A program made the translations under genes and the position numbers. Source: Antrihabitans stalactiti (GTDB taxonomy: Bacteria > Actinomycetota > Actinomycetes > Mycobacteriales > Mycobacteriaceae). From it: a stretch of DNA of 64,000 nt. The stretch lies in NCBI RefSeq assembly GCF_012932915.1, contig NZ_VCQU01000003.1, positions 62,001-126,000 on the forward strand. Reading direction: 5' to 3'. Below the pieces are notes generated by a model. That model was not told the origin of the DNA. It made no database searches and saw only the letters and a program-made list of their open reading frames with translations. This document shows positions 26,821 through 58,226 of this stretch, piece after piece; positions within the stretch are counted from its first letter, which is position 1; each line of letters opens with the position of its first letter.

Positions 26821-29800
26821 TGTCGTGCCTGCCACGCCGAACCGAGCATTGCGAGCGCATCCTCGCTCAAGCCAGACACCGCCATCGGGGCGTGCGACTG
26901 CTCGACGACGGGCTCGGCTGGTTTCTCGGCGGTGACGCCGCTGTCGAGCGCCCTGTCGATGGCACTCGCGAGCTCCGCGATCGTCAGGTACTCGAACACC
27001 ATCTGCGGCGTCAGCGGCAGGCCTGCCTGCGTTGCTCGGCCAGCCCACTGGATCGAGATGACACTGTCGCCACCGAGCGCGAAGAATCCGTCCTCGCGGC
27101 CCACATCCTCGATCTCGAGCAGCTCTTCCAGCAGCTCGATGAGTTGGTGCTCGGTGTCGGTCGCGGCTGCACCGGCGAGAACAGCCTCCTGCGCTTGGCG
27201 CTTCTCCTCCAGAACGACGAGCACCAGCACGCCATCCGATTCCCACCGGGCTCGGACGCCGCTACGGAACACCCGATCGCCCTGCCCGGACCCGCCCAGG
27301 TACAGCTCGCCGACCACACCGCGCGGGACAAGTCGGCCTGCCGAATCGAGCACGAGCGCGCGGACGCCAGGCGCGGGCCGACCCCGGATCGGATCACTGC
27401 CTCCGAACAGCACCTGCGCGAGATCGTCGACGCTGAGGTCGGGTGCCGTGCTCGCCGCCTCCAGATCGAGCTGGTTGGCGTGGCCCCACTCGAGCAGCTG
27501 CACCCGCTCGCCTCGCGTGAGAACGTCGACATCGCCGACAGCGGCGTCGACGTCATCGGCGAACGAGGTGAGTACTCGGAGCAGTCGGTCCGCGAATTCC
27601 TGTCCCGATGCCTCGTCGTACAAATCGGTATTGAGGATCACGCCGCCGTCGAATCCACCCTCGGCATCCGCGAAGAAGCTCACGCTCACGTCGAGGTAGG
27701 CGATGTCGAAGTCGAACGGCAATACCGTCAGAGCTGAACCAGCGAGATCCACTCGGTCCGGCGCGGTCTCGCGGAAATGCAGCATGACCTGGAAAAGCGG
27801 GTTTCGTGACCTGGTTCGCGGCGGGTTGAGCGCTTCGACGAGCCGCTCGACCGGGATGTCCTGGTTGCTGTATGCGCCGAGCGCGTCGTCGCGCACGCGC
27901 GACAGGATCATGCGCATCGTCGGATCCCCGGTGAAGTCGGTCCGGAGGACGACGATGTTCGCGAACAGGCCGATCAAATCGTCGGTCGCCGCGTCGACGC
28001 GCCCCGCAATTGGCGTGCCCACCGGCACGTCGTCGCCTGCGCCCAATTTGTGCAGCAGCGTTCCGAGCGCGGCTTGGTACACCATGAACTCGGTCGTGCC
28101 GACGAGCTCGGCGGTCGCCTTCAGTCGTTCGCGCAGCTGCGCAGGCACGCTGAACGACGTGGCTGCTCCGCGCACACCGAGGCTCGCAGGCCGCGGACGG
28201 TCGTGCGCTACAACGATTTCGTCGGGTGCGCCGGCCAACGCCGTGCGCCAGTAGTCGATCTGCTGCTGTGCCAACCCGCTGACCGCGCCGGTGCCCGGCG
28301 CCTTGTCGAACAGTTCGCGCTGCCATATCGCGTAGTCCGCGTATTGCAGCTCGCGGTCCGGCCAGTCCGGTGCGCCAGACCCGGCTCGGCGCGCGGCATA
28401 CGCAGTCGCCAGGTCCTTGAACAACGCGTCGAAGGACCAATGATCGGCGACCATGTGGTGCACGAGCAGCGACAGCACGCGCACGTCGTCGGTAAGGGTG
28501 AACAGGTGCGGCCGGAAGAGCGGCTCGGATTCGACCGCGAAACTGTGCTGCGCGGCTTCGGCCAATTCCCGATCGAGCCGCTCTTGGTCACCGTCGAGCT
28601 GCGTGCGACCGACCACGACCGACGCGGCAGGATTGACCTGTTGAAACGGAATGCCGTCGTGCTCCGGGAACGTGGTGCGAAGCGACCCGTTGCGCTCGAC
28701 GACGTCGCCGATCGCGGCGACCAGCGCTTCCTCGTCCAGCGGACCGTCGATCCGTACCGCCAGCGGAATATTGCCGACCGCGCTCGGACCCTCCAGCCGA
28801 CGTTGGAACCACATCGCCAGCTGCGAGTACGACAGCGGCACGCGTTCGGGCCGGTCGCGTCTGGTGATCGGTGGACGTTGCGCGCCTTTCGGGATCATGG
28901 CCTCCGCGTCGATGACGCTCGCTAGTCCAACGACGGTCGGAGCGTCGAAAGGAGTGCGGACATCGATGTCGACATTGAATTCGGTCCGCACCTGCGCGAC
29001 CAGTCGGGTCGCTAGCAGCGAGTGTCCACCGAGTTCGAAGAACGAATCGTCCGCGCCCACCGTGTCGCGGCCGAGGATTCGGGCGAACAGCGCGGCAAGA
29101 CGGACCTCGGTCGGCGTGCTCGGCGCGCGATGCTCGGCAGCCGACGCTGCCATCGGCTCCGGCAGTGCAGCACGATCCAGCTTGCCGTGCGCCGTGATCG
29201 GAATTTCGTCGATCGTCAGCACGGCGGTCGGGACCATGTGCTCGGGCAGCGTCGCAGCCACGCGCGTCTTCACCTCGTCGGCGTCGATCGACTCGACACC
29301 GGCCGCAGGTACGACATAGGCCACGAGGATCGAGCCGATTTCCGGACGCTCGGTCGCGATGACGACACAATGCGCGACATCGTCGTGAGCCGCGATCGCA
29401 GCTTCCACTTCGCCCAACTCGATACGGAACCCGCGGACCTTGACCTGCTGGTCGGACCGACCGACAAACTCCAGGTCACCGTCGGTGTTGCGCCGCGCCA
29501 AGTCGCCGCTTCGGTAGATCCGGCCGCCGGGATGGAATGGATCGGCGACGAAGCGCTCGGCCGTCAGCCCGCGTCGATCGAGATATCCGCGCGCTACCTG
29601 GTCACCACCGAGGTAGATCTCGCCGACCACTCCGGTCGGTACTAGCTGTAGGGCGTCGTCGAGCAGGTAGAGGTAGACGTTGCGGTTCGGCGTCCCGATG
29701 GGCACGATGCGGGTGCCTTGGGGTTCCTCGACTGCGTAGTGCGTCGACGAGACGATCGCCTCGGTCGGACCGTAGTGGTTGCGCAGGGTGGCGTCGAGGA

Positions 29801-32119: not shown

Positions 32120-35100
32120 CTAGTTCTGCACGAGAAGTCGAACGACTTCATCGAGCGACGCACCGCCGAGAATCGCGGACACCGGCAACTCCCGGTCGAG
32201 CGACGACTTGACCCGTTTGCGGAAGTCCAGCGCCTGCAGTGAGTCGAGACCGAGCGCGACCAGCGGTATCGACGTGTCGATCAGGTCTGCGTCGTCGATG
32301 CCCATGACGCGGTTGAGCTCATGCAGGACGACGTTCGCGAAGTCGATGCTCGGCGTTGCGAGAACCGGTACTGCAACAGCCGGCGCGGCATCGGCGGGTT
32401 TGACGACTGTTGGCGGCGCATCGAGCTCACCGAGTTCGGACAGCAACGGTCCGTACCCGAACGACCCCAACACCGATCGCACGACCGACCAGTCGGCAGC
32501 GGCGACGATCGCATTGCGACGGTCGTCGGTCAGACCGACAGCGATCGCATCGGCCGGCGCCATCGGGATCACGCCGGTGCTCCGCAATCGAGCCAGTCCG
32601 GCGGCGTCGAGGTCGAAATGGACACTCCACATGCCCCACCCGATGGCAACCGCGTCGATGCCGTCAGCGCGCAACCGCTGAGCAAGCACGTCGAGGATTC
32701 GGTTGGTGACCGCATAAATCACTTGGCCACGGCCACCCAAGTTCGCGGCGATCGACGAGCACAGCACGACGCGGGCCTGCTCGGTGCGATGCAACGCGCG
32801 CAACACGTTATCGACCCCGACGACCTTGGCTCGTGCGGCTGACTCCACGTGTTCGGCAGTGATGTCGGCGAATTCGGAATCGGAGTAGTCGACCGCCGAG
32901 TGCACGATGAGGCTGGCCGGTGCCAGCGCTGCGCTCAGCTCGGCGACCTCCGCCTCGTCGCCGATGTCGCACGCGATCACGGCGACCTGGGTACTACCGA
33001 TCGACCTGATCTTGCGTACCCGGTCTGCGGTGGCCGCACTCTCGCCGGACCGGCTGAGCAGCGTGATCCGTTCCGCGCCTGCACGAGCGAAGTGCTCGCC
33101 GAATTCCAGGCCGAGCTTGCCGGTGCCGCCGGTGATGACGACATGGGACAGGTCCGCGTCGAATGCCTCGTCGGCTGCGGGTGCGGCTTCGACGAGCCGC
33201 TTCACGTAGACCTTCCCGCCGCGCAACGCCAGCTCGGACTCTGTCGCAGTGTGCAGCGCCGACACGACGGCCGCGGCCTGCTCCGGCTTCGGCCGATCCA
33301 GCGATAGATCGAGGTGCCGGAAAGCAATGTCCGGGTATTCGGTTCCGATGCAACGGAACCCCGCACTCACCGAACCGTTGAACAATTCCGGCGCAGCGTC
33401 GCCGTCGAGCACAGTTTCGCCACTCGTCGTCACCAACCAGCAGTCGACGAGCCCGGCGCGCACTTGCGGCCACCACTCGCGGTCACCGAAGAACCGCGCG
33501 ACCGCCGCAATTGTTGCCGTCGCATCCAGCTCGGTCGGCTCCGGCAGCAGCACGACCAAGGTGTCGAATCCGCTCGTCTCGGGCACGAGTCGACGTGCTG
33601 TCGCGCCGTGCTCGATCGCTTCCGCTTCCAGCGCCGTGACCAGGTCGCCGTTGGCATCCGCGAGGTCCACCACCGCGATGGTCCTGGGCTCGAGCAACGA
33701 CCGCCGACCCAACTTCACCCAGGTCTCGACGAGCCGGTGCGGGTACGTGGCCGGTGCATCCGCGGCAAGGGCTTCGTCGGACAGATACGGCAACCAGAGT
33801 TTGCGGTCGTTCATCACGACGGTCGGGAAGCCGCGCAGCGGCAGTTCCACCGGCGCATCATCGTCGGTGCGGAGCACCTCCCACGGATAGTTCGCGTCGT
33901 GTACCGCGATGGTCGCGAGATTCCGGGTGAACTCCCCCAGGTCCGGTGCGGTCCGTCGGGACGTGCCCGCCACTCGGAACGCGCCATCTGTTACGACGGT
34001 CGACAAGTTCTCCTGCACCGCCAACATCAGCGTCGGATGGTCGGCGATCTCGACGAAAGTATCGATGCCATGTCTTGTCGCGGCCGTGGTGATCGCCTGG
34101 TCGAAGCGGACCTTGTTCCGCAGATTCCAGTACCAGTACTCGTCGACGGGGAGATCGGCCGTGATCGCATCGCCGAGCGTTGCCCCGATGCACGGAATAT
34201 CGGTTTCGAAGAACACGTCGCTGTCGGTCTTTCCAGCGATCGCAGTGCGCAGGCCGTCTTGAAAGTCGTCGAGCATGCAGGTGTGCGCGGGGTACTGAAC
34301 GCGAATCTCTTTGGCGAAGGTCCCTTGCGCGACCAGCTTGTCGACGATGTCGCAGACTGCCGGCCGATTGCCGGAGATGCAGATCAGGTTCGGTGCATTG
34401 ATGACGGACAGCTCCATCCACCCCGAATGGCGGGCGAGCAGGGCCTCGCATTCGTCGCGGCCGATGCCGATGACCGCCATCGAGTAGCCCTCGGGGACGA
34501 TCGCGTCGACGACGACGGCTCGGGTCGTCACCACGCGGATCGCGTCGCGCTGCGAGATAGTGCCGGACAGGTAGGCAGCGGTGATTTCGCCCTGGCTGTG
34601 ACCGACCGTCACCGACGGCGCCACCCCGTACGAGCGCCACATCGCCGCGAGGCCGGCCATCTGCATGAACATTGCGGGCTGCACGATCTTGACGTTCGCG
34701 TCGATCGGACCCTCGTCTTCGAGAACGTACGACAACGGCGAGGAACCGTAGAGCTCCTGGAAAACTGCCTCACAGCTGTCGATTTCGGCCCTGAATGCGG
34801 GTGAGCGGTCGTAGAAGAGCCGTCCCATTCCGGGATGCTGGCCGCCCTGACCTGGAAAGACGTACCCGACACGGTGGCTCGCTGCCGGTGTCGTGGTCGC
34901 GACCACCTTGGAATGCTCTTCGCCTGCTGCGATCGCCCGCAGTGCGGCAAGCAGTTCGTCCCGGTCGGCGACCATCGCCAAGGCGCGGTAGCGGCGTGCG
35001 ACGCGGGTACGAAACAGCATCGACGCAATTCGGTCCGGCCCTATTTCGGGATGTGCCGTCGCATAGTCGAACAGCGCGGCTGCCTCGGTGCGCAGCGAAC

Positions 35101-35221
35101 TTGCGGAATCCGACGAGACGAGAACCGGTACGGTTCCGTCCGGAAGCTCATAGGCGGGAATTGTCCTGCTCCTTCTCGGCGGGCATCGCGATGATCGCGT
35201 GAGCGTTCGAACCCCCAGCAC
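32120..35221 (-). CDS. mbtD: Polyketide synthase AT-KR-ACP (MbtD-like)
   Basis: About 1033 residues. AT domain: VFPGQGGQHPGMG near 120 and GHSQGE near 207, with YPAH further on; GHSQG is more typical of methylmalonyl-CoA than malonyl-CoA transferases. KR domain: VVITGGTGKLGLEFGEHFA near 695 and catalytic Ser/Tyr in LCSSIAANLGGRGQVIYAV near 827. ACP: LGLDSLQALDFRKR near 990. It lacks KS and DH; the KS is the separate upstream gene, as in mycobactin loci. Product: an (alpha-methyl-)beta-hydroxy acyl chain. The only in-frame start is GTG 35221, a 74-base overlap with the KS gene; an ATG across the KS stop is out of frame. Confidence 0.88.
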   Translation of the reverse strand: MLGVRTLTRSSRCPPRRSRTIPAYELPDGTVPVLVSSDSASSLRTEAAALFDYATAHPEIGPDRIASMLFRTRVARRYRALAMVADRDELLAALRAIAAGEEHSKVVATTTPAASHRVGYVFPGQGGQHPGMGRLFYDRSPAFRAEIDSCEAVFQELYGSSPLSYVLEDEGPIDANVKIVQPAMFMQMAGLAAMWRSYGVAPSVTVGHSQGEITAAYLSGTISQRDAIRVVTTRAVVVDAIVPEGYSMAVIGIGRDECEALLARHSGWMELSVINAPNLICISGNRPAVCDIVDKLVAQGTFAKEIRVQYPAHTCMLDDFQDGLRTAIAGKTDSDVFFETDIPCIGATLGDAITADLPVDEYWYWNLRNKVRFDQAITTAATRHGIDTFVEIADHPTLMLAVQENLSTVVTDGAFRVAGTSRRTAPDLGEFTRNLATIAVHDANYPWEVLRTDDDAPVELPLRGFPTVVMNDRKLWLPYLSDEALAADAPATYPHRLVETWVKLGRRSLLEPRTIAVVDLADANGDLVTALEAEAIEHGATARRLVPETSGFDTLVVLLPEPTELDATATIAAVARFFGDREWWPQVRAGLVDCWLVTTSGETVLDGDAAPELFNGSVSAGFRCIGTEYPDIAFRHLDLSLDRPKPEQAAAVVSALHTATESELALRGGKVYVKRLVEAAPAADEAFDADLSHVVITGGTGKLGLEFGEHFARAGAERITLLSRSGESAATADRVRKIRSIGSTQVAVIACDIGDEAEVAELSAALAPASLIVHSAVDYSDSEFADITAEHVESAARAKVVGVDNVLRALHRTEQARVVLCSSIAANLGGRGQVIYAVTNRILDVLAQRLRADGIDAVAIGWGMWSVHFDLDAAGLARLRSTGVIPMAPADAIAVGLTDDRRNAIVAAADWSVVRSVLGSFGYGPLLSELGELDAPPTVVKPADAAPAVAVPVLATPSIDFANVVLHELNRVMGIDDADLIDTSIPLVALGLDSLQALDFRKRVKSSLDRELPVSAILGGASLDEVVRLLVQN

Positions 35222-36476
35222 CGAACGAGGACATGGCGCCGTAGCGCACGCCGTCCGTCGGCTCCCAGTGCTCCAACTTGGTCGCCAACCGCAACGACGA
35301 CCGATCCCAGTCGACCTGCGTTGTCGGATTGTCGGCGTACAGGCTCGGTGCGATCTGACCGTTGTCGGCGGAAACCAAAACCTTCAGCAGCCCGAGAATC
35401 CCGGACGCCGCCTGGGCATGGCCGAAGTTGGTTTTGACCGAGCCCAACAGCGGTCCGGTGCCTGCTGCGCCGTAGGTGTTCTGCAGCGCGGTCAACTCCA
35501 GCGGATCGCCGGTGGGCGTCGCAGTTCCGTGGCCCTCGATCATCGTGACCAGACCGGGATCGATGCCCGAGGCAGCGACCGTCTTCGAAACCAACCGTTC
35601 CTGCGCCTCCGCGCTGGGCACGATGATCGGTTTGCCTTTGCCGTTGTGGTTGATTCTCGTGGCCAGCACCCGACCGTAGATCCGGTGGCCGAGCCGTCGG
35701 GCACGGGATTCCCGTTCGACGACGACCACGCCGCCGCCTTCACCCCACACCGTTCCGGACGCGTCGTCCGCGTACGACCGCACGTGACCGTCCACCGCGA
35801 GAGCGTTGTTCTTCGCGAACTCGTAGAACGGAGCGGGTGAGCCCATAACGCAGACCGCGCCTGCCAGCGCCCACTCGCACTCATCGGCGCGGACAGCGTT
35901 CGCGGCGAGATGCAATGCCGTAAGCGATGACGCGCAGGCCGCGTCGACGCTGGTGGACGGCCCGGTCAGACCAAGGCTGTGCGACACCCGACCACAGACC
36001 GACCCGAGCGCGTAACCCGAGATCCGGTGCCCGGTGAACTCGTTGGCCGAGCCTGCTCGTGGCCCGTATTCACTCAGCGAGACGCCGATGTAGCAGCCGG
36101 CCTCCTCGCCCGCGACGGACGCCGGGTTGACGCCGGCATTCTCCAGCGCACGCCAGGCCAGGCGCATGATCACCCGCTGCTGTGGGTCCATCGCGATCGC
36201 TTCACGTGGCGACAAGCCGAAGAACAGTGCGTCGAAATCTGCTGCGCTGTCGAGGAACCCGCCCGCGTCGGGCACCGCGCCCCAACCTTCGCGCTCCCCC
36301 AGTGTCAGCAGTTCGCCGAGCGGCCAGCCGCGGTCGCGCGGCATCGGGCCGATCACTTCGCGTCCTTCCGACAGCACGGCCCAGAAGGACTCGAGGCGGT
36401 CGACGCCGCCGGGAGCCTCGACGGCCATCCCCGAAATGACGATGTGATCGCGAGCCGCGGCTGGTGCGCTGCTCAT
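35148..36476 (-). CDS. mbtC: Ketosynthase (MbtC-like)
   Basis: A 442-residue stand-alone beta-ketoacyl synthase. The active-site Cys is in STSVDAACASSLTALHLAAN near 165, the first His in EGHGTATPTGD near 310 and the second in KTNFGHAQAASG near 345, so the catalytic triad is complete. It should condense a fatty acyl starter with the extender on the AT-KR-ACP protein. Start ATG 36476 overlaps the stop of the thioesterase gene (ATGA). The much longer frame to 36845 is antisense shadow. Confidence 0.92.
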   Translation of the reverse strand: MSSAPAAARDHIVISGMAVEAPGGVDRLESFWAVLSEGREVIGPMPRDRGWPLGELLTLGEREGWGAVPDAGGFLDSAADFDALFFGLSPREAIAMDPQQRVIMRLAWRALENAGVNPASVAGEEAGCYIGVSLSEYGPRAGSANEFTGHRISGYALGSVCGRVSHSLGLTGPSTSVDAACASSLTALHLAANAVRADECEWALAGAVCVMGSPAPFYEFAKNNALAVDGHVRSYADDASGTVWGEGGGVVVVERESRARRLGHRIYGRVLATRINHNGKGKPIIVPSAEAQERLVSKTVAASGIDPGLVTMIEGHGTATPTGDPLELTALQNTYGAAGTGPLLGSVKTNFGHAQAASGILGLLKVLVSADNGQIAPSLYADNPTTQVDWDRSSLRLATKLEHWEPTDGVRYGAMSSFGAGGSNAHAIIAMPAEKEQDNSRL

Positions 36477-37228
36477 GCCGTCGTGCTGCGCACAGGCGTG
36501 AGCAGCTCCGCAATTTCGTCGATGTTGTCGTTCAAGTAGAAATGTCCGCCATCGAATACGGTGACGTCGACGCCGGAATCCGAATGTCGCGACCATCCGC
36601 GCAGGTCGGCAATGGTGATGAAAGGATCGTCGTCGCCGCCGACGGTGTGAATGCGCGCATTGACCTTCACGCCCGCTGCGCACGAATAGCTGTCGAACGC
36701 CCGATAGTCCTTCTTGATCACGGGTAGCGCCATCTTCATGATCTCGCGACTGCCGAGCACCGCGGCACCAGTCCCGTTCAACGTCTCGAGGTGATCGAGG
36801 ATCGCGTCGTCGGACGCCGGGTGATTCGGTTGCGCCTCGACGCAATCGGGAGCAACAGCTGCCGACACGGTCAAGAGGCGAACGTCGAGTCCGGCGGCCT
36901 CAGCGGCGCGAACGAACTCGAAGGCGACGATGGCACCCATGCTGTGGCCGAAGATGGTGATGGGTCCGCCCCGGTTGAAGGTCGAGGTCGAGAACTCTGC
37001 CAGCGCGCCGTGGGCGAGTTCGGGCAGTGTCTCCGCAGCTTCTTCGCGCGCACGGTCCTGCCGTCCGGGGTATTGGAAGACGACGACATCGAAGGTCTCG
37101 CTCAGCTTCTTCGAGAACGTGCGATACGTCGATGCGCCGCTTCCCGCGTGCGGGAATATCAACAGCGTGGGGTTGTCCGCGGCACTCGGCTTGTGAAACT
37201 GCCGGCTCCACGCAAGGCTTCGAGCCAT
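36473..37228 (-). CDS. mbtT: Type II thioesterase (MbtT-like)
   Basis: A 251-residue editing thioesterase of the NRPS/PKS type. LLIFPHAGSGASTYRTFSK holds the oxyanion region, IFGHSMGAIVAFEF the nucleophile Ser (near 97), and VTVFDGGHFYLND the catalytic His near the C-terminus. It removes wrong or stalled acyl groups from carrier proteins. It is the first gene of the left-arm operon, about 64 bases from the iron box at 37292-37310, and overlaps the KS gene by four bases. Confidence 0.9.
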   Translation of the reverse strand: MARSLAWSRQFHKPSAADNPTLLIFPHAGSGASTYRTFSKKLSETFDVVVFQYPGRQDRAREEAAETLPELAHGALAEFSTSTFNRGGPITIFGHSMGAIVAFEFVRAAEAAGLDVRLLTVSAAVAPDCVEAQPNHPASDDAILDHLETLNGTGAAVLGSREIMKMALPVIKKDYRAFDSYSCAAGVKVNARIHTVGGDDDPFITIADLRGWSRHSDSGVDVTVFDGGHFYLNDNIDEIAELLTPVRSTTA

Positions 37229-37291: not shown

Positions 37292-37310
37292 TTAGCGTAG
37301 GCTAGCCTAA
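37292..37310 (-). promoter_or_regulatory. Iron box upstream of the TE-KS-PKS-NRPS operon
   Basis: TTAGCGTAGGCTAGCCTAA matches the IdeR/DtxR consensus at 16 of 19 positions, the best in the window. It lies between the end of the formyltransferase gene and the thioesterase start on the minus strand. It predicts repression of the left-arm biosynthetic operon when iron is sufficient. Confidence 0.85.
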
Positions 37311-37313
37311 CAT

Positions 37314-38270
37314 CTACCGCTGGGACCGATCGACCGTGCTCGCAAAGAAGCCGCCACGCGCGAGAAAATCGGTGGCGACATGGACGGTGTCATCGTCGGT
37401 ACGGACCTTCTTGATCAACAGGCCGAGGTTGTGCCCACGGAACGAATCGGGGCCGACGACGACCGCCATGCCGTCACCCTCGCGCACGAACACTCGTCCC
37501 GCAGTGCCGCCGTATCGGACCTTCGCGACGGCGGCGTCCACGATCCGCAGCCGCTGACCGCGGTAGAACGTGTACGCGTTCGGATACGGATCGGCGAGTG
37601 CACGGACGAACCGCTCCAGGTCCTCGGCGGGCAGTCGCCAATCGATCAAGCTGTCGCTCTCGGACCGCTTGTGGAAAAACGTCCGCTCCGCCGGGTCTTG
37701 CGGCGTCCAGGTAGCGGTTCCGGCCTCCAACTCGGCCAACGCTTCCTTCAATACGTCCGGGATCAGGTCCATCGTCATCTCGACCAACGCGGGCGCAGTG
37801 TCGGTCGGCCTGATCTCGATCGAGCGCTGCACCAGGATGTCGCCGGCATCGAGTTCTTCGTCCATTCGATGCACCGTCAGCCCGGTGTGGGTGTGACCAC
37901 TGATCACGGCCCACAGCACCGGCGAGAATCCGGCGAACTTGGGCAGCAACGAGTCGTGCAGATTCAGCGTCCCGTGCGGCGGCAAGTTGTACAGCTCAGC
38001 AGGCATCCAGGTGTACCAACTGTTCACGACGATGACGTCGGGTGCGGCTGCGGCGACCTTGTCGATCGTCTCCCGGTCCACGCGTTCGGTGATGTGCACG
38101 TCGATGTCGTTCCCCTTGGCGAGGTCTTCGACCGAGTCCGACCAGAGCGACTTGTACGCGTGCTCGCTCGCCGGATGGGTAACCGACAGCACGACTTCGT
38201 GGTCCGAGTCGATCAAGGCCTGCAAAGTCCTGTATCCCCAGGTCTGATAGCCGAACGTCACAACGCGCAT
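37314..38270 (-). CDS. N10-formyl-THF-dependent hydroxamate formyltransferase
   Basis: A 318-residue protein of the methionyl-tRNA/UDP-sugar formyltransferase family. The catalytic set is present: NLHDSLLPKFAGFSP (Asn and His, near 105-115) and EELDAGDI (Asp, near 145). A C-terminal OB-like domain follows. The housekeeping Fmt has a different C-terminal domain; position between two iron boxes in a siderophore locus marks this as a tailoring enzyme that formylates an N-hydroxylated lysine side chain, completing a bidentate formyl-hydroxamate. It takes the place of the long-chain acyltransferase MbtK of mycobactin loci, which I do not see here. Confidence 0.85.
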   Translation of the reverse strand: MRVVTFGYQTWGYRTLQALIDSDHEVVLSVTHPASEHAYKSLWSDSVEDLAKGNDIDVHITERVDRETIDKVAAAAPDVIVVNSWYTWMPAELYNLPPHGTLNLHDSLLPKFAGFSPVLWAVISGHTHTGLTVHRMDEELDAGDILVQRSIEIRPTDTAPALVEMTMDLIPDVLKEALAELEAGTATWTPQDPAERTFFHKRSESDSLIDWRLPAEDLERFVRALADPYPNAYTFYRGQRLRIVDAAVAKVRYGGTAGRVFVREGDGMAVVVGPDSFRGHNLGLLIKKVRTDDDTVHVATDFLARGGFFASTVDRSQR

Positions 38271-38293: not shown

Positions 38294-38312
38294 CTAGGCT
38301 AGGCTAGCCTAC
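38294..38312. promoter_or_regulatory. Iron box between formyltransferase and siderophore-binding protein
   Basis: CTAGGCTAGGCTAGCCTAC matches the IdeR/DtxR consensus at 15 of 19 positions, and the surrounding TAGGCTAGG repeats allow overlapping registers. The gap between the two divergent starts is 87 bases, so one box probably controls both genes. Confidence 0.8.
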
Positions 38313-38357: not shown

Positions 38358-39344
38358 TTGAAACCATTTCGCAGCACCAAGAGGGGTTGGCGCCGCATGG
38401 CGATCGCTGCCATTGCAGGCGGCGTCGCTCTCGCTTCGATCGGCTGCAGCTCCGACAGCGACTCCGCAGACTCGACCCACGGCGAATCCGTGACCATCAC
38501 GCACGCGCTCGGCGAGACCACGGTCAAGGGTGTGCCGGAGCGCATCGTCGTCCTCGACGGTCAGTGGTTGGATGCAGCGCTCGCCTTGGGTGTCACGCCC
38601 GTCGCGTACTCCGACGTCGTCAGCAAGATGACCGGCACTCCAGCACCGTGGGAGCCTGAATCGCTGAAAGACGTCAAGACGATCAATTCCGGCGGCGACA
38701 TGGTCGAACAGACGGTGTCGTTCAATCCCGACCTGATCCTGGCCCCCGGGTACGGAATCGACAAAGCGCAGTACGAGAAGCTGTCCCAGGTCGCACCGAC
38801 AATCCCTGCGCTGAGCACGTCCGAAGTGAGCTCGTGGACCGATCAGGTCACGGCATTGGGCAAGGTCTTGCACAAGGAAAGCGCGGCGACCAAGGTCATC
38901 GACGACATCAACGGCCGAATCGACGCCATCGCGGCGCAGAACCCGGGAATCAAGGGCAAGACGTTCCTCACGTCCTACCTGGCGTCGCCCACCCAACTCA
39001 TGGTGCTCGTCGACGCGAAGGACGGTTCCAGCGAACTCTTCACTCGCCTCGGAATGACCCTCCCGCCGAAGTTGGTCGAGGGTGCGGGCGGCAACAGCCG
39101 AATCTCGCTGTCGCCGGAACGTCTCGCCGACCTGAACTCCGACCTGCTTGTCGCGACCGCTACTCCGGAGATGCAGACCCTGTTCAAGGACCTGCCCGGC
39201 TACCCAGGGCTGCCGTCGGTATCGAAGAACAGCCTCGCGTTCTTGGACGTCCTCACCGGAACCGCCCTGAACCTGCCGACACCGCTGAATTTGCCCTACA
39301 TCTTGGACAAGCTCGAACCGGCGATCGTCAACGCCGGCAAGTAG
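38358..39344 (+). CDS. Siderophore-binding lipoprotein of an ABC importer (FecB/FepB type)
   Basis: A 328-residue substrate-binding lipoprotein. The twin-basic N-terminus is followed by a hydrophobic stretch and lipobox ASIGC (near 30). The mature domain has the FecB pattern: VPERIVVLDGQWLDAALALG (helical backbone hinge), FNPDLILAPGYG, and a long central helix. It should bind the ferric siderophore outside the membrane and deliver it to the FecCD permeases at 54-56 kb. Start TTG 38358 follows GAGGAG; an ATG 16 bases upstream is out of frame. An iron box lies directly upstream. Confidence 0.88.
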   Translation: MKPFRSTKRGWRRMAIAAIAGGVALASIGCSSDSDSADSTHGESVTITHALGETTVKGVPERIVVLDGQWLDAALALGVTPVAYSDVVSKMTGTPAPWEPESLKDVKTINSGGDMVEQTVSFNPDLILAPGYGIDKAQYEKLSQVAPTIPALSTSEVSSWTDQVTALGKVLHKESAATKVIDDINGRIDAIAAQNPGIKGKTFLTSYLASPTQLMVLVDAKDGSSELFTRLGMTLPPKLVEGAGGNSRISLSPERLADLNSDLLVATATPEMQTLFKDLPGYPGLPSVSKNSLAFLDVLTGTALNLPTPLNLPYILDKLEPAIVNAGK

Positions 39345-39402: not shown

Positions 39403-41085
39403 TCACTCCCGAGCCAGCGCGGACTGTGCATAGCCGCTCATCTCGGCTTCGATCTCCTTGCGAATCTCACCGTGCAGGTCCCGCAGCCCGACCCGTGAGG
39501 TCCGTACTTCGACGACCCGAAGACCCTTGCTGGAGTTCGCCTTCCTGGCCAGAACGTCGACGAGCTCACCTTCGGTGACGATCTGATGGGGAATTCCGTG
39601 CGCTCCGCACAGTTGGCCGAAGTCGGTCTCGTGCGGTGTTCCGAAGACCCGCTCGAAGACGTCCGCGTGGGCCGGATCGCCCTGCTCGAGCAAGCTGAAG
39701 ATGCCGCCACCGTTGTCGTTCGCGACCACTATGGTCAGGTCTTTCGGCATCGGTTCGCTGGGACCGGCGAGCATGCCGCCGCTGTCGTGGGCGAAGGTCA
39801 GGTCGCCCAGCAGCGCGATCGTGCGACCCGAACTGCCGATCGCCGCGCCTACCGCAGTCGAGACCAGCCCGTCGATGCCCGCGACACCGCGATTCGCGAC
39901 CACCGTGACGCCACACGGCCGTTTCCAGGTGAGCGCGATATCCCGGATGGGATTGGACGATCCGATGACCAAGGTGTCACCGCTGACCAGTTGGCGGGTC
40001 AATGCGCGCGCGACGTGCAGACCGGTCGTCTCGTCGACCGAGTCGAGAGCACGACCGACCGCTCCGTACGCGATATCGGACGCCCGCTCGCACATCTGCA
40101 ACCAGTCCACCGCAGACCTGCCGACGACGCGCACACTGCGCCCGACTGCATTAGCCGTCCCGGACACATCCGTCCAACTCTTCTCTGCCGCGATCACCAC
40201 GATTCGGACCGCAGGCGACGAGAGCAGCTGAACGACCTGGCGGTGCAGCGTCGGACGCCCCACCACAACGACCTGCTGCGGAGCCAGGTGCGCGATGGCG
40301 TGCGGATGCACCGCATTCGACACTGCCGGTGCTGACGGCTCCGCGATGGTCGGCACGCCGGCCAGCTCCGGGATCTCGCGCGCCCCATGACCGGTGATCA
40401 CCAGCGTGTTCAAGGTGAGGTCCACGGTGACGGGAGCGTCCATTCGGGCCGGCTCGATCGCAGTCCACGGACCGCCGTCGTCGCGACCGAGCGGAACGTC
40501 GACCGGCTGCGGCCCGACCAGCGGCTCAGCGAACGGGACGTCCAGATGCACTGGGCCGGGATGACCGTCCCGCAGCCCGTGCGCAGACGCTGCCAAACGG
40601 CAGATTGTCGCTCGCCATCGAATGTTGTGCTGGACGAGCCGCTGACTGTCCGGCGGATAGTCGTAGTCGGCTTGGGAAAGTGTGGCCTCGGCCCGCACCT
40701 CGGCGCCGAACACTCCGGACTGCAGGATCATCTGGCTCGCACCAGTGCCGAGCAGTTCGCCCGGCCGGTTCGCCGACACCACCATCAGCGGAAGGTTCGC
40801 ATAGCTCGCCTCGAGAATGCCCGGGGCCAGATTCACCACAGCCGAGCCGGACGTCGTGATGATCGGTACCAAACGCGCTGTCGCCGTTGCCAGCCCGAGG
40901 GCTAGAAACGCAGCGCTGCGCTCGTCGATCCGAACATGCAGCCGGACCTTGCCCTCCGCATCTGCGCGATGCAACGCAAATGCCAGCGGCGCATTCCGCG
41001 AACCCGGGCACAGCACCGCATCACGAACGCCGCAGCGAATGAGCTCGTCGACGATCACGCTCGCTTGCGTCAGCGCGGCGGTCAC
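39403..41085 (-). CDS. menD: MenD: SEPHCHC synthase embedded in the siderophore operon
   Basis: A 560-residue ThDP enzyme. N-terminal CPGSRNAPLAFAL and the ThDP-activating Glu in RIDERSAAFLALGLA are present; the ThDP/metal motif GDLTFAHDSGG...ANDNGGGIFSLLEQG near 430-460 is complete and close to the mycobacterial MenD pattern. Known reaction: isochorismate plus 2-oxoglutarate to SEPHCHC in menaquinone synthesis. Start GTG 41085 overlaps the O-methyltransferase stop (GTGA), so it is translated as the last gene of the aryl-activation operon, downstream of an iron box. No other men gene is nearby. Whether it is the only MenD of the cell or a paralogue for the siderophore cannot be told. Confidence 0.92.
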   Translation of the reverse strand: MTAALTQASVIVDELIRCGVRDAVLCPGSRNAPLAFALHRADAEGKVRLHVRIDERSAAFLALGLATATARLVPIITTSGSAVVNLAPGILEASYANLPLMVVSANRPGELLGTGASQMILQSGVFGAEVRAEATLSQADYDYPPDSQRLVQHNIRWRATICRLAASAHGLRDGHPGPVHLDVPFAEPLVGPQPVDVPLGRDDGGPWTAIEPARMDAPVTVDLTLNTLVITGHGAREIPELAGVPTIAEPSAPAVSNAVHPHAIAHLAPQQVVVVGRPTLHRQVVQLLSSPAVRIVVIAAEKSWTDVSGTANAVGRSVRVVGRSAVDWLQMCERASDIAYGAVGRALDSVDETTGLHVARALTRQLVSGDTLVIGSSNPIRDIALTWKRPCGVTVVANRGVAGIDGLVSTAVGAAIGSSGRTIALLGDLTFAHDSGGMLAGPSEPMPKDLTIVVANDNGGGIFSLLEQGDPAHADVFERVFGTPHETDFGQLCGAHGIPHQIVTEGELVDVLARKANSSKGLRVVEVRTSRVGLRDLHGEIRKEIEAEMSGYAQSALARE

Positions 41086-42101
41086 ACCGCACGCGCCTCG
41101 ACGACGCTCATTTCGAGCGGGAGATCACGCACCTCGACCAACTCGAAGCCGGTCTCGACGAGCAACCGGCGGTATTCGTCGACCGATCGTTCCCGACCGC
41201 TCGTCATGACGAACATGTGCAGATCGAACGCTGTGGTGACCGGGGTCGGCTCGTCATCGGAGAGCACCCGCTCGACGATCAACAGACTCGAGCCCGCCGT
41301 CATCGCCGCGCGGACGTTCCGCAAGATCGCCGCGGACGCATTGTCGTCCCAGTTGTGCAGAATTCGGCACAGGATGAAGACGTCGCCACCGCTGGGCAGA
41401 CCGGCGAAGAAGTCACCGGCGACAACGTCGGCGCGACGCTCTTCGACGAACGGCGCGAGGCGCCGCTCCCCCGCGGCAACCGCGGCGGGACGTTCGATCA
41501 GACGACCGGTGGCCGTCGGAGTCGCGTCCAACACGGTCTCGAGCAGCGTGCCGTCGCCGCCGCCGACATCGATGACCTTCTTGCCTGCGAAGTCGACGAC
41601 ATGTGGCAACTCGGCGACGAACGCGCTCCCCACCGCGATGCCGGAGCTGTAGACGGCCAGCGCGTCCGGGCGACTGGCGAGGAACTCGAAGACAGACTCG
41701 CCGTGCGCCTTCGCGAACGGCTGCTCGCCGACTCGCAGTGCCGGTACCAGCTCACTCCACGCGTCGGCGAAGTATTGCTCCTGGTACAGGTTCACGAGGT
41801 TGCGCATCGAGCTCGGATGATCCGTCCGAAGCAACTCACCGGTCGCGGTGAGCGAGTACGTCGAGCCATCGCGCTCGACCAGTCCGAGCGCCTGCAGGAA
41901 TCGGAGCAGGCGCGCAAGCGATTCCGCGCCCACGCCGACCTCGGTCGCGATCCGGTCGACCGGCTGGTCGCCGTCGGCCAGCACGTCCGCGATACCGAGT
42001 TCGGCGGCGGCGCCGACCGCGTTGCTGACCCAGTGCCCGATCATCAGCCGCAGTAGCTCCGATTGGTGGAGCCGGACATCTGGTGCGGAGATCGACGTCA
42101 T
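41082..42101 (-). CDS. SAM-dependent O-methyltransferase (COMT-like)
   Basis: A 339-residue methyltransferase of the plant COMT/antibiotic type. N-terminal helical dimerisation domain (VSNAVGAAAELGIADVLADG), SAM-binding VIDVGGGDGTLLETVLDA near 165, and catalytic-His region ILCRILHNWDDNASAAILRN near 235. It should methylate a phenolic or enolic hydroxyl. ATG 42101 overlaps the stop of the ArCP gene (ATGA). Its place directly after the carrier protein suggests methylation of the aryl cap or of a carrier-bound intermediate, compare methoxy-salicyl siderophores of Nocardia; this is inferred from context. Confidence 0.85.
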   Translation of the reverse strand: MTSISAPDVRLHQSELLRLMIGHWVSNAVGAAAELGIADVLADGDQPVDRIATEVGVGAESLARLLRFLQALGLVERDGSTYSLTATGELLRTDHPSSMRNLVNLYQEQYFADAWSELVPALRVGEQPFAKAHGESVFEFLASRPDALAVYSSGIAVGSAFVAELPHVVDFAGKKVIDVGGGDGTLLETVLDATPTATGRLIERPAAVAAGERRLAPFVEERRADVVAGDFFAGLPSGGDVFILCRILHNWDDNASAAILRNVRAAMTAGSSLLIVERVLSDDEPTPVTTAFDLHMFVMTSGRERSVDEYRRLLVETGFELVEVRDLPLEMSVVEARAV

Positions 42102-42376
42102 AGGGATCGCGCCTTAGTGTCGGCCTGCTCGGAGAGCAGGCGGTACCAGCCGTTTATCGTCGGGTTCTTGGCGAGCTGTCGTAGCGGGATGTCGTAGCCG
42201 CCGGCGCGCATCGCACCCGCGAGCCGCATCATTCGCAGCGAATCCATGCCGTACTCGAGCAGGTTTTCGTCGTCGGATGTTTCCGTCCACGACACGAGGC
42301 CCAGTGAGTGTGCGGCGGCTGCCCGCACGTCTTCGATGGTCCAGGCTCGGGTGGTCGTCACAATCGCGTCGTTCAT
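42098..42376 (-). CDS. Stand-alone aryl carrier protein (EntB C-terminal type)
   Basis: A 92-residue carrier protein. LLEYGMDSLRMMRLAGAM has the phosphopantetheine Ser and matches the ArCP domain of EntB/DhbB (D-S-x-R-M-M) rather than ordinary peptidyl carriers; LAKNPTINGWYRLLSE is the typical ArCP C-terminus. The isochorismatase domain of EntB is absent. It should carry the aryl acid activated by the ligase at 45.6-47.3 kb to the Cy domain of the NRPS. I use ATG 42376 (MNDAIV), which follows AAAGGA; a start 18 bases upstream is possible. Confidence 0.9.
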   Translation of the reverse strand: MNDAIVTTTRAWTIEDVRAAAAHSLGLVSWTETSDDENLLEYGMDSLRMMRLAGAMRAGGYDIPLRQLAKNPTINGWYRLLSEQADTKARSL

Positions 42377-45300: not shown

Positions 45301-45653
45301 TACGTCGTGCGCAGCTCGGCCAGCTTCGCGTCCCGTTCACCGACCGAGAGCCCCCGCAGGTCGTGTTCGGTGGGTTCGAACGTCGGCACCGTCGGCACGA
45401 TGCGTTGTTGGCGAAGGTCGACGTCCACGACCAACCGCAGCGCGTCGTGGCGCTCGATCAGCCGATTCCACACCGCGGTGAATCGCGCGGAGTCGATTGC
45501 ACCCTCGTATTCGTAATAGCCGTGTGCCGCAACGCCGCCGTACTCGTACGAATCTTCTCGGCCCAACACGTATGCGAGCTGAGTGTCGGTAATCGGGAAC
45601 GGCTCGTACCGATCCTCGGGAGCCGGGCGAACATCGGGAAAACCTGTGGTCAT
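42399..45653 (-). CDS. NRPS Cy-A-T (heterocyclising module, MbtB-like without ArCP)
   Basis: A 1084-residue module. Cy domain: FPITDTQLAYVLGR at 19-32 (the Cy1 signature) and FDGLCFDYLSW near 155, giving the D-x4-D motif of cyclisation domains. A: VLFTSGSTGVPKGV near 630, and GGPTETTLWNIW near 770. T: FYALGGDSVIAIT near 1004. It should join the aryl group to Cys, Ser or Thr and form a thiazoline or oxazoline ring. My reading of the A pocket (D, M, F, ..., L, G, I, L, W) is nearest to cysteine codes, with low certainty. No oxidase domain. Overlaps the ligase stop by four bases. Confidence 0.9.
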   Translation of the reverse strand: MTTGFPDVRPAPEDRYEPFPITDTQLAYVLGREDSYEYGGVAAHGYYEYEGAIDSARFTAVWNRLIERHDALRLVVDVDLRQQRIVPTVPTFEPTEHDLRGLSVGERDAKLAELRTTYSHVVIDPGTWPLWHVAISRIDDQVSRIHIGFDGLCFDYLSWRLLLAELTALYADPAAELPAIELSFRDYVLATEELGSSELYLRSERYWTKRLASFPSAPVLPAGSGNGEGRANTRFTRREAGLEPRRWQELTTRARSLGLTPSAFMMAAFGEVLAAWSGETRFALNIPGMNRLPLHPEVEKVIGEFASVSVLEIDHDPAATFIERAERIQDTLWDDLEYSHYSGLRFMRELTRRDGNSNRARMPIVLTSTLGWSDGERTPLDGRVTEIFSLSQTPQVSLDVQIHEADGELYYNWDTVDSAFAPGLIDDMFTAFRELLERLADSAELWDQTDIGVVPLSEARLDGRHLDRGTDLVPDLFVARATSRPNHPALIDGPTTITYGQLLDQVNRIGNALALQDDRPIVAVLVGKGWQQFAAVYAVLTSGGAYLPIDVSLPADRVRSILERSGAAAALTESTLRPDLRDAVAQSVSVLVDVDGPAVADAATERTHLASAASDLAYVLFTSGSTGVPKGVMVEHGGLVNCVLDTVETFDVSTADASIAVSALHHDMSGFDVFVALTAGSTVVIPDADRHRDPEHWSDLVADHRVTLWCSVPAMLDMLGSAATTQLPSLRLALTGGDWVPPQLLGKLRERAANVGLISIGGPTETTLWNIWRRVDVVDPAWRSVPYGVPIANTSYLLLDSGLRPVPAGVVGEMYCAGPGVARGYLGDPERTAASFPLHPATGERLFRTGDYGRRMAGGEIEFVGRRDRQVKIGGHRVELGDVESALASLPAVETAVVTPVVAGDGHSCRALVAHVVGDSDAGTIGGALLELLPLHMVPATFRFVDALPLTANNKVDYRALTAIGAGAPVSVTRREPSTALEKVVAAVWQEILNVPDVAVDDNFYALGGDSVIAITVTKELREVLVDPGIDLRMLLDSLTVERLAKNLLAAEPMPGRLNEVAGIYLEILALSDAEIATELREQH

Positions 45654-47254
45654 GCTGTCGCCTTCTCGGGTGCGCTCGACCGCAGCGTCTTCTTGTCGAC
45701 CTTGCCGATCGCCGTTCGCGGTAGCGCGTCGATCACCCGGACCAGGTCGGGAATCTTGAATGCCGCGACGCCTTGCTCGTTGAGAAATCGGGCCAGTTCG
45801 GCCTGCCGCGGCGCGTCGTCACGGGCTACGACGTACGCGCAGCTGCACTCGCCGAGCACCTCGTCGGCGATCCCCACCAGCGCGACCTCGAGGACCGCTG
45901 GGTGGGCAAGCAGCAAGTTCTCGACTTCTTCGGCAGCGATCTTCTCGCCGCCGCGGTTGATCTGGTCTTTCACCCGGCCTTCGAAGACGACCTGCCCGTT
46001 CGGCAGGTGCCGGATCAGGTCGCCGGTCCGGTAGAAGCCGTCCGTCGTGAACGAGTTCACGTTGTGCTGGCCGCCGCGGTAGTAGCCGCGCACCGTGTAC
46101 GGACCGCGCGTGAGCAGCTGCCCGACCTCGCCGCGCGCGACCTCGTCACCCGCTTCGGAGACCACCCGAATTTCGTCGGCGGGCGACACCGGGCGACCCT
46201 GCGCGTTGATCCGCGTCTCGAGATCGTCGTCGCCGGACTGGAAGCCACACAGTCCTTCGGCCATTCCGAACGCTTGGTGCAACTGACAGCCGAGGGCGGG
46301 CTCCACGCGGCGGGCGAGTTCGGCGGCGAGTTTGGTGCCGCCGATCACGACGCGACGCAGGCTCGACAGATCCTCGGTCGCGTACGGCGCCATTTCGACC
46401 CATGCGAGCGCGATACCGGGCACCAGGCCCGTATCGGTGACCCCGTGTTTCTCGACCAGCTTGAATGCCGTTCCCGGGTCCGGACTTTCGCCGAGCACGA
46501 GCGTGCCTCCAGCGTGAAAGGTCGCCATCAAGCCATGGGTGAGGGTCCAGTTGTGCCCGAGCGGCAGGCAAACCATGTGCCGTGTGGTCGTGTCGTAAGA
46601 ACTGGATTCGGCAGTCGCGCGACCGCTGTAGGACCAGTCGTCATGAGTGCGTGCCACGAACTTCGGTAAGCCGGTGGTTCCGCCGGACATCAGAAGCACG
46701 GCGACGTCGCCGGGATCGGTCGGCGCGTGCGAGGTCGGCTCCTGGCGAAGTGACTCGAGCGAGGTGAACTCCGCTGGATCTCCGAGCACGAGAACGTTCG
46801 CGAGCTTGTCGGTCTGGTTGCGGACGGTCCGCGCCAAATCCCGGTAGTCGAATTCGTCGGCAACATCGGGGATCACGTACGCGACGGCGTCGGTGCATTC
46901 CGCGAAGTGCACGATTTCGGTCGTGCGATGGGCGGGGAGCGCAAAGACTGGGATGGCCCCGATGCGCAGGAGAGCGAACATCACGACGACGAACTCGACC
47001 CGGTTCGGCAGCTGGACAATGACGCGATCGCGATCCTTGATGCCGAAACTGCTCAGTCCGGCCGCATAGTGATCGATCTCGTGATCGAGATCGGCGTAGG
47101 TCCACTCGCCGAAACGGTCGATAACCGCCGTTGCATTGGCGAAGGTCAGGCCATACCGGCGCATAGCCGCATCGAGCGGTTCGCCGTTCCAATAGCCGAG
47201 TTCCCGGTACTTCTGTGCGAACTCATCCGGCCAGGGTTCGAATCCGTCGAGCAT
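45650..47254 (-). CDS. Aryl-AMP ligase (salicyl/DHB-AMP ligase family) with unusual acid pocket
   Basis: A 534-residue stand-alone adenylation enzyme of the EntE/DhbE/MbtA type that loads an aryl acid on the ArCP. The P-loop is LLMSGGTTGLPKF near 190 and the A10 lysine is in GKVDKK near the end. The pocket element is LGHNWTLTHGLM near 230, where salicylate enzymes usually read HN-F-P-L-A-C-P-G, and FGMAEGLCGF near 330 where Leu or Val normally follows GL. The conserved HN is kept. So the aryl substrate may be altered. AAGGAG precedes ATG 47254, and an iron box lies at 47272-47290. Confidence 0.85.
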   Translation of the reverse strand: MLDGFEPWPDEFAQKYRELGYWNGEPLDAAMRRYGLTFANATAVIDRFGEWTYADLDHEIDHYAAGLSSFGIKDRDRVIVQLPNRVEFVVVMFALLRIGAIPVFALPAHRTTEIVHFAECTDAVAYVIPDVADEFDYRDLARTVRNQTDKLANVLVLGDPAEFTSLESLRQEPTSHAPTDPGDVAVLLMSGGTTGLPKFVARTHDDWSYSGRATAESSSYDTTTRHMVCLPLGHNWTLTHGLMATFHAGGTLVLGESPDPGTAFKLVEKHGVTDTGLVPGIALAWVEMAPYATEDLSSLRRVVIGGTKLAAELARRVEPALGCQLHQAFGMAEGLCGFQSGDDDLETRINAQGRPVSPADEIRVVSEAGDEVARGEVGQLLTRGPYTVRGYYRGGQHNVNSFTTDGFYRTGDLIRHLPNGQVVFEGRVKDQINRGGEKIAAEEVENLLLAHPAVLEVALVGIADEVLGECSCAYVVARDDAPRQAELARFLNEQGVAAFKIPDLVRVIDALPRTAIGKVDKKTLRSSAPEKATA

Positions 47255-47339: not shown

Positions 47340-47358
47340 TGAGGTAAGCCTATCCATA
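47340..47358 (+). promoter_or_regulatory. Iron box upstream of the salicylate synthase
   Basis: TGAGGTAAGCCTATCCATA matches the IdeR/DtxR consensus at 13 of 19 positions. It is immediately upstream of the ribosome site GGAGG and ATG 47370, and 50 bases from the box serving the divergent ligase operon. Confidence 0.7.
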
Positions 47359-47369
47359 CTGGAGGACGG

Positions 47370-48713
47370 ATGACGATCGCTGATCAACAGCTGCGTGTCG
47401 ACTCGACGGTCGACTCGCTCGAGGCGGTGACGAAGCTCGCATCCTCCGGACTGTTCTCCGAGTACGTCGTCTACGAGCGCCCCGACGACTGCGTGTTTGC
47501 GGCGGGAGTGATCGGTCGGATCCAGCTCGACACCAACGAAATCCGCACTATGTGGAACGGCGAATCGTGGCGCAAGGAATGGTCCGGATCGCCCGCCGCT
47601 GTTCTCGACGAGGCGTTCGCGACTCTGCCGACCGAGGATACGAATGCGTACGGCTGGATCGGGTTCGAGTTCTGCGCCTACAGCCACGGCGCTGCCGCTC
47701 GCCTCGGCCACACTCAGCCGCTTGCCCACCTGATCGTCCCGCGCATCGAAGTGCGATTCACCGACGGCGGCTTCACCATCGTCGGCGGCGACGCCACGGA
47801 ACAGCGCAGCGTATTCGACCTGCTGGCTACCGAGCCGCCGCGCGTCCCTGCGACCGGCACCATCGACATCCGGACCGACCCCACCGCCTACCGCGAGCGC
47901 GTGGCCAGCGCAGTAGCCGAGATCGAGCAGGACCTCTACCAGAAGGTCATCATTTCCCGTCGCGTCGACATCGACTTCGAGGTCGACATGGCCGCGACCT
48001 ACCGTTTGGCCCGTCCACACAACAACCCATCGCGGTCGTTTCTGCTACGGCTCGGTGGGGTGGAGGTCGCCGGATTCAGCCCGGAGATCGTGGCTTCGGT
48101 CGATTCGGCGGGGTGCGTCACCAGCGAACCACTTGCCGGTACGCGCGCCTTCGGGCGTGGATCCGAGCTCGACCTCGCAGCACGGACCGACCTCGAATCG
48201 GACCCGAAGGAGATCGTGGAACACGCCGTCTCCGTGCGGACTTCGCTCGCGGAAATCCAGACCGTCACCGAACCCGGCACCGCGGTCGTGTCCGATTTCA
48301 TGGAGGTCGTCGAGCGCGGCAGCGTTCAACATCTCGCGTCGACGGTGCGCGGCCAGCTCTCCCCCTGCCGTAGCCATTGGGATGCGTTCGACGCGTTGTT
48401 CCCCTCGGTGACAGCGTCGGGCATCCCGAAAGAGCCGAGCATCGACGCCATCTTCCGCCTCGACGGTCCGGCGCGCGGTCTGTACTCGGGCGCCGTCGTC
48501 GCACTCACAACAGGCCACAGCCTCGACGCCGCATTGGTGCTGCGCGCGATCTATCAAGAGGACGGTCAGGCGTGGTTGCGCTCCGGGGCCGGGATCATCG
48601 CGCAATCGGTTCCGGACCGCGAATTCGAAGAGACCTGCGAAAAGCTCGGCAGCATCGCGAAGTACGTCGTGCGCCGAACCAATGCATCAGCCACAGGACA
48701 GGACCGACCTTGA
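47370..48713 (+). CDS. mbtI: Salicylate synthase (MbtI/Irp9 type)
   Basis: A 447-residue chorismate-using enzyme that forms salicylate by way of isochorismate with Mg2+. Visible landmarks follow MbtI closely: SEPLAGTRAFGRGSELD near 252, SDPKEIVEHAVSVR near 275, VERGSVQHLASTVRG near 310, VTASGIPKEPSIDAIFRL near 350 and FEETCEKLGSIAKYVV near the end. ATG 47370 follows GGAGG. It provides the aryl acid for the ligase on the opposite strand; isochorismate is also the substrate of the MenD in that operon. The stop overlaps the exporter ATPase start (TTGA). Confidence 0.93.
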   Translation: MTIADQQLRVDSTVDSLEAVTKLASSGLFSEYVVYERPDDCVFAAGVIGRIQLDTNEIRTMWNGESWRKEWSGSPAAVLDEAFATLPTEDTNAYGWIGFEFCAYSHGAAARLGHTQPLAHLIVPRIEVRFTDGGFTIVGGDATEQRSVFDLLATEPPRVPATGTIDIRTDPTAYRERVASAVAEIEQDLYQKVIISRRVDIDFEVDMAATYRLARPHNNPSRSFLLRLGGVEVAGFSPEIVASVDSAGCVTSEPLAGTRAFGRGSELDLAARTDLESDPKEIVEHAVSVRTSLAEIQTVTEPGTAVVSDFMEVVERGSVQHLASTVRGQLSPCRSHWDAFDALFPSVTASGIPKEPSIDAIFRLDGPARGLYSGAVVALTTGHSLDAALVLRAIYQEDGQAWLRSGAGIIAQSVPDREFEETCEKLGSIAKYVVRRTNASATGQDRP

Positions 48714-57396: not shown

Positions 57397-57426
57397 CGAC
57401 CAACTCCGTACTCTCAAAAGGTTGTG

Positions 57427-57445
57427 TAAGCCTAGCCTAACCAAA
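57427..57445 (-). promoter_or_regulatory. Iron box upstream of the N-hydroxylase/importer operon
   Basis: On the minus strand TTTGGTTAGGCTAGGCTTA matches the IdeR/DtxR consensus at 15 of 19 positions. It lies between the stop of the siderophore-interacting protein and the hydroxylase start, 31 bases before that start, so the hydroxylase/permease/ATPase genes have their own iron-controlled promoter. Confidence 0.8.
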
Positions 57446-58207: not shown

Positions 58208-58226
58208 TTAGGTAAGCATAAGATAA
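58208..58226 (-). promoter_or_regulatory. Iron box upstream of the siderophore-interacting protein
   Basis: TTAGGTAAGCATAAGATAA (plus strand) matches the IdeR/DtxR consensus at 14 of 19 positions. It is 21 bases before the start of the siderophore-interacting protein gene and marks the right boundary of the iron-controlled locus. Confidence 0.75.

Follow-up and report, generated by a model that had tools for sequence, protein, structure and literature searches.

The window analysed here is a stretch of 64,000 nucleotides from Antrihabitans stalactiti (NCBI RefSeq assembly GCF_012932915.1, contig NZ_VCQU01000003.1, positions 62,001 to 126,000 of the forward strand), and the gene in question encodes a second copy of the menaquinone-pathway enzyme MenD within a siderophore operon. 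The genes for an aryl-acid adenylating ligase, a cyclization-adenylation-thiolation (Cy-A-T) module of a nonribosomal peptide synthetase (NRPS), an aryl carrier protein (ArCP), an O-methyltransferase (OMT) and MenD follow one another as a single minus-strand operon, which forms one arm of a mycobactin-type cluster. The features of this arm and of the divergent salicylate synthase gene are as follows, in window coordinates.

39403..41085, minus strand: MenD, 2-succinyl-5-enolpyruvyl-6-hydroxy-3-cyclohexene-1-carboxylate (SEPHCHC) synthase, second copy in the genome (P0001); TIGR00173, 304 bits against a cut-off of 244.2
41082..42101, minus strand: Methyltransf_2-type OMT; PF00891, 127 bits
42098..42394 (open reading frame), minus strand: stand-alone ArCP; PF00550
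42399..45653, minus strand: Cy-A-T NRPS module with the motif DGLCFDYLS, a DxxxxDxxS-type motif
45650..47254, minus strand: aryl-acid adenylating ligase with a remodelled ring pocket; nearest model TIGR02275
47272..47290, minus strand: IdeR/DmdR-like iron box, 14/19, 17 bases before the ligase start
47340..47358, plus strand: IdeR/DmdR-like iron box, 14/19, upstream of the salicylate synthase gene
47370..48713, plus strand: MbtI-type salicylate synthase; TIGR03494, 502 bits against a cut-off of 325

Four-base overlaps occur at three of the four operon junctions (ligase/Cy-A-T at 45650-45653, ArCP/OMT at 42098-42101 and OMT/MenD at 41082-41085). The likelier start of the ArCP is the ATG at 42376, behind GAAAGGACC. 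A preliminary description had already given this gene order with overlapping ArCP-OMT and OMT-MenD junctions, the iron box before the ligase and the divergent salicylate synthase, and all of these were recovered. It had also described the operon MenD as standing apart from other men genes, in agreement with our tblastn search at 1e-5, which found no menB or menC homologue in the window; no search aimed at menH, menE or menA was made.

The source genome (6.76 Mb in 26 contigs, completeness 100) contains two MenDs over the TIGR00173 cut-off. The preliminary description had allowed that the operon copy might be the only menD and had proposed a search for a second one, for further men genes and for its place in a MenD tree. 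A sole menD is ruled out by a housekeeping copy (L001) on contig C26, which adjoins menC (NF002782, 467 bits), with a menJ-like gene and menB (NF006186, 591 bits) nearby; this MenB is the only one over its cut-off in the whole genome. With the operon MenD as the query, at 1e-60 and with scoring limited to the top four candidates in each genome, matches were obtained in 287 of 301 genomes of the family, with two matches only in the source genome (G000). At 1e-100, a sample of 396 genomes from the phylum gave matches in 15 genomes and none outside the family. On these searches, the operon MenD appears to be a rare paralogue of origin within the family. The MenD tree places it apart from the other family MenDs, at the end of a long branch of 2.1 changes per column. 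This placement speaks against a recent duplication of the housekeeping copy, but the approximately unbiased (AU) test does not reject a clade of the two copies (p-AU 0.075).

The best solved-structure match to the operon MenD is the M. tuberculosis enzyme (529 bits over residues 3-542), with which it shares its catalytic motifs. According to PMC9835592, that enzyme is inhibited by 1,4-dihydroxy-2-naphthoate (DHNA) through a cage of Arg97, Arg277 and Arg303, of which Arg97 has the largest effect. In our alignment these positions are Asn, Arg and Ser in the operon MenD, whereas all three are Arg in 31 of 31 other MenDs, namely those of M. tuberculosis, the housekeeping locus and 29 best-scoring, not randomly drawn, family loci; the loss of the cage is informative inside the family only. 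The operon copy thus lacks the intact arginine cage that marks the DHNA-feedback-regulated MenD of the Mycobacteriaceae type. It retains PGSRN, IDER, SANRP, Q118, SNPxRD, NRGVAGIDG, GDLTF and NDNGGGIF, while GANQT reads GASQM (N117S and T119M, flanking Q118). Having passed the TIGR00173 cut-off with its thiamine diphosphate (ThDP) and substrate motifs in place, it is predicted to be a SEPHCHC synthase. We consider it very improbable that the enzyme has instead been neofunctionalised to use another acceptor or donor and to make an aryl precursor other than DHNA. The long branch speaks for such a change, as do 49 columns that are invariant in the 31 MenDs and altered here, including N117S beside Q118; against it stand the model score and the retained motifs, the fact that residues 295-305, the loop holding the cage residue Arg303, account for 9 of the 49 changes, and a locus in another genome, described below, in which MenB accompanies MenD.

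The ligase is homologous over its full length to solved aryl-acid ligases of the DhbE/BasE/PchD type (5wm2, 620 bits; DhbE, 580 bits), and it scores 622.5 bits against the 2,3-dihydroxybenzoate (DHB)-AMP ligase model TIGR02275, below the cut-off of 723.55. Unlike these enzymes, it is one residue short where a Ser/Cys touches the 3-position of the ring (DhbE 240, BasE 247); the claim is limited to one missing residue because two alignments disagree on whether the gap is at 240 or 241. In DhbE numbering it also carries V329A (BasE 336), V337C, N338G, Y339F and Y236W. As given in PMC12005286, from which the roles of the BasE residues were taken, the BasE V336A mutation opens the 4-position. The pocket expected for DHB or salicylate (Ser/Cys at DhbE 240 followed by Pro, and Val at 329) is not found in the window ligase. 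DHNA can be drawn as salicylate with a second ring fused at the 3,4-bond and would, we infer, match both altered sides of the pocket.

This pocket was compared across ligases from the family and the phylum. All 29 family ligases compared, which were the best-scoring among those from 97 of 151 genomes (1e-100) and included two of the same genus (G015 and G042), have DHB- or salicylate-like pockets. The deletion was likewise absent from three Millisia/Nonomuraea ligases and from 13 other phylum places (two repeats) drawn from the 396-genome sample at 1e-150. The altered pocket defines a class of 5 of 48 distinct ligases (the window, L118, L154, L048 and L049), which form a single clade with support of 100/100; besides the window, its members come from Nonomuraea, two Actinomyces and G787, a genome of the Nonomuraea family. 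None of the 43 other distinct ligases has it, and all 43 keep the Cys/Ser contact. Positions 329 and 337 are Ala/Cys in two members of the class and Met/Ile in three.

At E<=1e-100, only one ligase was found in the source genome, and the divergent MbtI-type enzyme retains its active-site motifs (alignment, by eye) and lies behind its own iron-box-like site. These points would suit a family of siderophores with mixed caps, in which MbtI supplies salicylate and the same ligase and ArCP load both salicylate and DHNA-type acids. We regard this as unlikely, since the ligase has lost a contact that every one of the 43 others keeps, and MbtI may provide isochorismate instead. MbtI-type enzymes can release isochorismate, and an isochorismate synthase is also encoded elsewhere in the genome (C20:587396, 256 bits). 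The idea that the MbtI-like enzyme has decayed to an isochorismate synthase was set aside, as its motifs match those of salicylate synthases.

A genome scan with the OMT as the query led to four loci, in two Actinomyces, Nonomuraea sp. SYSU D8015 and Millisia. In both Actinomyces the class ligase lies immediately upstream of the OMT; in A. israelii and A. gerencseriae (L048:8352-11029 and L049:8377-11008) the locus is an NRPS locus with methyltransferase and thioesterase (TE) genes, the class ligase and the OMT. The OMT gene of Nonomuraea sp. SYSU D8015 comes after an isochorismate synthase gene (279 bits against a cut-off of 225) rather than a salicylate synthase gene; this locus also holds an NRPS 42% like the Cy-A-T module and a thiazolinyl imide reductase, and the class ligase lies on a different contig. 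No salicylate synthase over the cut-off was found in the genomes of the two Actinomyces or of Nonomuraea sp. SYSU D8015. The Nonomuraea locus (L047:998-10987; isochorismate synthase, OMT, Cy-type NRPS, thiazolinyl imide reductase) is a candidate karamomycin-type cluster, and L174 (G954) is a close relative.

An OMT search of the Nonomuraea family matched 199 of 297 genomes at 1e-45. Among the 32 best-scoring neighbourhoods, three are Cy-NRPS/thiazolinyl-reductase loci and a fourth is that of G787, where about 9 kb (C2:1216446-1225609; L154:9446-16047, L188:213-2609) contain the OMT, a class ligase, a TE, MenB (411 bits, cut-off 343), MenD (424 bits, cut-off 244) and a condensation-adenylation (C-A) NRPS, together with an MMPL protein. 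Another MenD is encoded elsewhere in that genome. This cluster is a second, more complete candidate for a naphthoate-type pathway. By comparison, ten control ligase loci (nine of the 13 other phylum places and one of the same genus) gave no OMT or MenD match, and 7 of the 10 have MbtI- or isochorismate-synthase-like neighbours.

The preliminary description had offered two readings of the operon MenD, a link between menaquinone supply and iron limitation, or a new aryl precursor for the siderophore that the OMT then methylates. Under the former, the operon MenD would offset isochorismate lost to salicylate, the cap would stay salicylate and the OMT would methylate another phenol. Catalytic motifs are retained in the enzyme, menC and menB elsewhere could finish menaquinone, and MbtI presumably competes for chorismate. 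Yet this leaves the ligase pocket, the OMT and the G787 locus with its ligase, OMT, MenD and MenB unexplained, and a related ligase occurs in 97 of 151 family genomes (1e-100) while a second MenD occurs in none of the 300 others searched; we judge it quite unlikely. The aryl-precursor reading is better supported, by the housekeeping menD, the lost feedback arginines, the remodelled ligase and the recurrence in G787, with one amendment: rather than making a new product, MenD most likely feeds the shared housekeeping men enzymes, which would finish ordinary DHNA as the precursor.

Iron-box-like sites were scored against a 19-base IdeR/DmdR consensus. Shuffling the window by mononucleotide ten times produced 8 matches of at least 14/19, counted per strand; since each palindromic site counts twice, about 0.4 positions are expected per 64 kb, so two 14/19 sites within one 115-base intergenic gap are unlikely to arise by chance. 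We propose that the operon is under iron control. The remainder of the cluster and two further sites lie as follows.

22321..27246, minus strand: MbtF-like NRPS (two condensation domains, A, T)
26817..32084, minus strand: MbtE-like NRPS
32120..35221, minus strand: MbtD-like acyltransferase-ketoreductase-acyl carrier protein (AT-KR-ACP)
35148..36845, minus strand: MbtC-like ketosynthase (KS)
36473..37228, minus strand: TE
37292..37310: iron-box-like site, 16/19
37314..38270, minus strand: formyltransferase, probably for hydroxamate formylation
38294..38312: iron-box-like site, 15/19
38358..39344, plus strand: iron-siderophore-type substrate-binding protein (Peripla_BP_2)

A FecCD permease gene also lies in the cluster region, and further 15/19 sites occur beyond it at 57422-57445 and 58208-58226. 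Downstream of the salicylate synthase gene, a FUSC (fusaric-acid-resistance-like) protein at 51355-53235 adjoins ABC-2 exporter subunits; these genes are a candidate exporter of an aryl acid or siderophore. The components taken here to define a mycobactin-type cluster, namely MbtI, ligase, Cy module, KS, AT-KR-ACP and two further NRPSs, are present, and the TE, formyltransferase and iron-box-like sites extend the likeness to the mbt and nbt systems. In G015, of the same genus, the back end is similar (MbtI 67%, MbtE 57%, binding protein 45%), the ligase is of the salicylate type (51%) and the Cy module is distant (35%); no OMT or MenD was found within the 39 kb fetched. Relative to G015, the front end of the assembly line seems to have been replaced.

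Taken together, we think it likely that a mycobactin/nocobactin-type line has been re-tooled to cap its product with a 1-hydroxy-2-naphthoyl group, an aryl unit supplied by the menaquinone pathway. With a little less assurance, we favour as the product a mycobactin-type siderophore whose cap is 1-hydroxy-4-methoxy-2-naphthoate. It would be made through a movable module of ligase and OMT, with or without MenD and MenB, in which a feedback-escaped MenD duplicate would open the respiratory pathway as a precursor supply. Every substrate and the final product are proposed here from sequence. Under iron limitation, the second MenD would condense isochorismate, from MbtI leakage or from the isochorismate synthase on C20, with 2-oxoglutarate, and SEPHCHC would be taken on to DHNA by the housekeeping men enzymes, those of menC and menB among them. 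Because two of the three DHNA-binding arginines are gone, DHNA build-up should not shut down the second MenD. The remodelled ligase would then activate either DHNA or the corresponding 4-methyl ether and load it on the stand-alone ArCP. The OMT, which we propose to be a DHNA 4-O-methyltransferase, would methylate the 4-hydroxyl before or after loading, and oxidation to the quinone should therefore also be stopped. The Cy-A-T module would make the aryl azoline, and the remaining line would complete the siderophore.

The direct precedent among the literature matches listed is a single prediction. In that source (eLife 2026, PMC12971057), menFDEB of Sporomusa termitida DSM 4440 is predicted to swap salicylate for DHNA in a metallophore and is linked to the karamomycins, which contain a DHNA substructure and are produced by Nonomuraea endophytica. 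The system described there resembles ours in having menaquinone genes in an NRPS metallophore cluster, a predicted DHNA chelating group and a thiazol(id)ine-forming line. It differs in being pyochelin-like, with menFDEB replacing the salicylate synthase, whereas the cluster here is mycobactin-type, keeps the salicylate synthase, has MenD alone plus the OMT and would depend on the housekeeping men genes. No mycobactin-type siderophore involving MenD or a naphthoate was found among the literature matches listed, whose coverage excludes subscription journals and preprints. Reported nocobactins share a hydroxyphenyl-oxazoline/-oxazole cap, and the accessible sections of PMC7413640 mention neither MenD nor a naphthyl group. 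The family ligases compared have DHB/salicylate-type pockets, while the pocket of the window ligase argues against a salicylate-derived hydroxyphenyl-oxazoline cap.

Several observations weigh against the naphthoyl cap. Salicylate is probably still made, because the adjoining synthase keeps its active-site motifs. MenD occurs together with the class ligase in just two of five fetched loci, Ala329 is not general to the class because three members have Met/Ile, and parts of the arginine cage are missing from both G787 MenDs and from those of Nonomuraea and Actinomyces. The tree sister of the OMT (100/98), in Millisia, stands in an NRPS/fatty acyl-AMP ligase (FAAL) locus without MenD or a class ligase, in a genome that has a salicylate synthase. 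Finally, 28 of the 32 OMT neighbourhoods in the Nonomuraea family have neither a strong Cy-A-T match nor a class ligase (3 of the 28 have another AMP-binding enzyme). The OMT family is thus broad, and the OMT alone as a siderophore marker is ruled out. Loci with the OMT but no strong NRPS neighbour occur in many genomes of that family (L152, L153, L155-L173 and L175-L181).

If the naphthoyl cap is borne out, it would give the mycobactin class a new chelating cap. The ligase signature (a residue missing at DhbE 240/241, HNW and EGL[CI]GF) would predict naphthoate-type aryl activation from genomes, and the prediction made for Sporomusa and the karamomycins would become testable in actinobacterial enzymes. 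For the organism, it would mean that a feedback-inhibited enzyme of primary metabolism has been duplicated and has lost its inhibitor site, and that the inhibitor has become the product.

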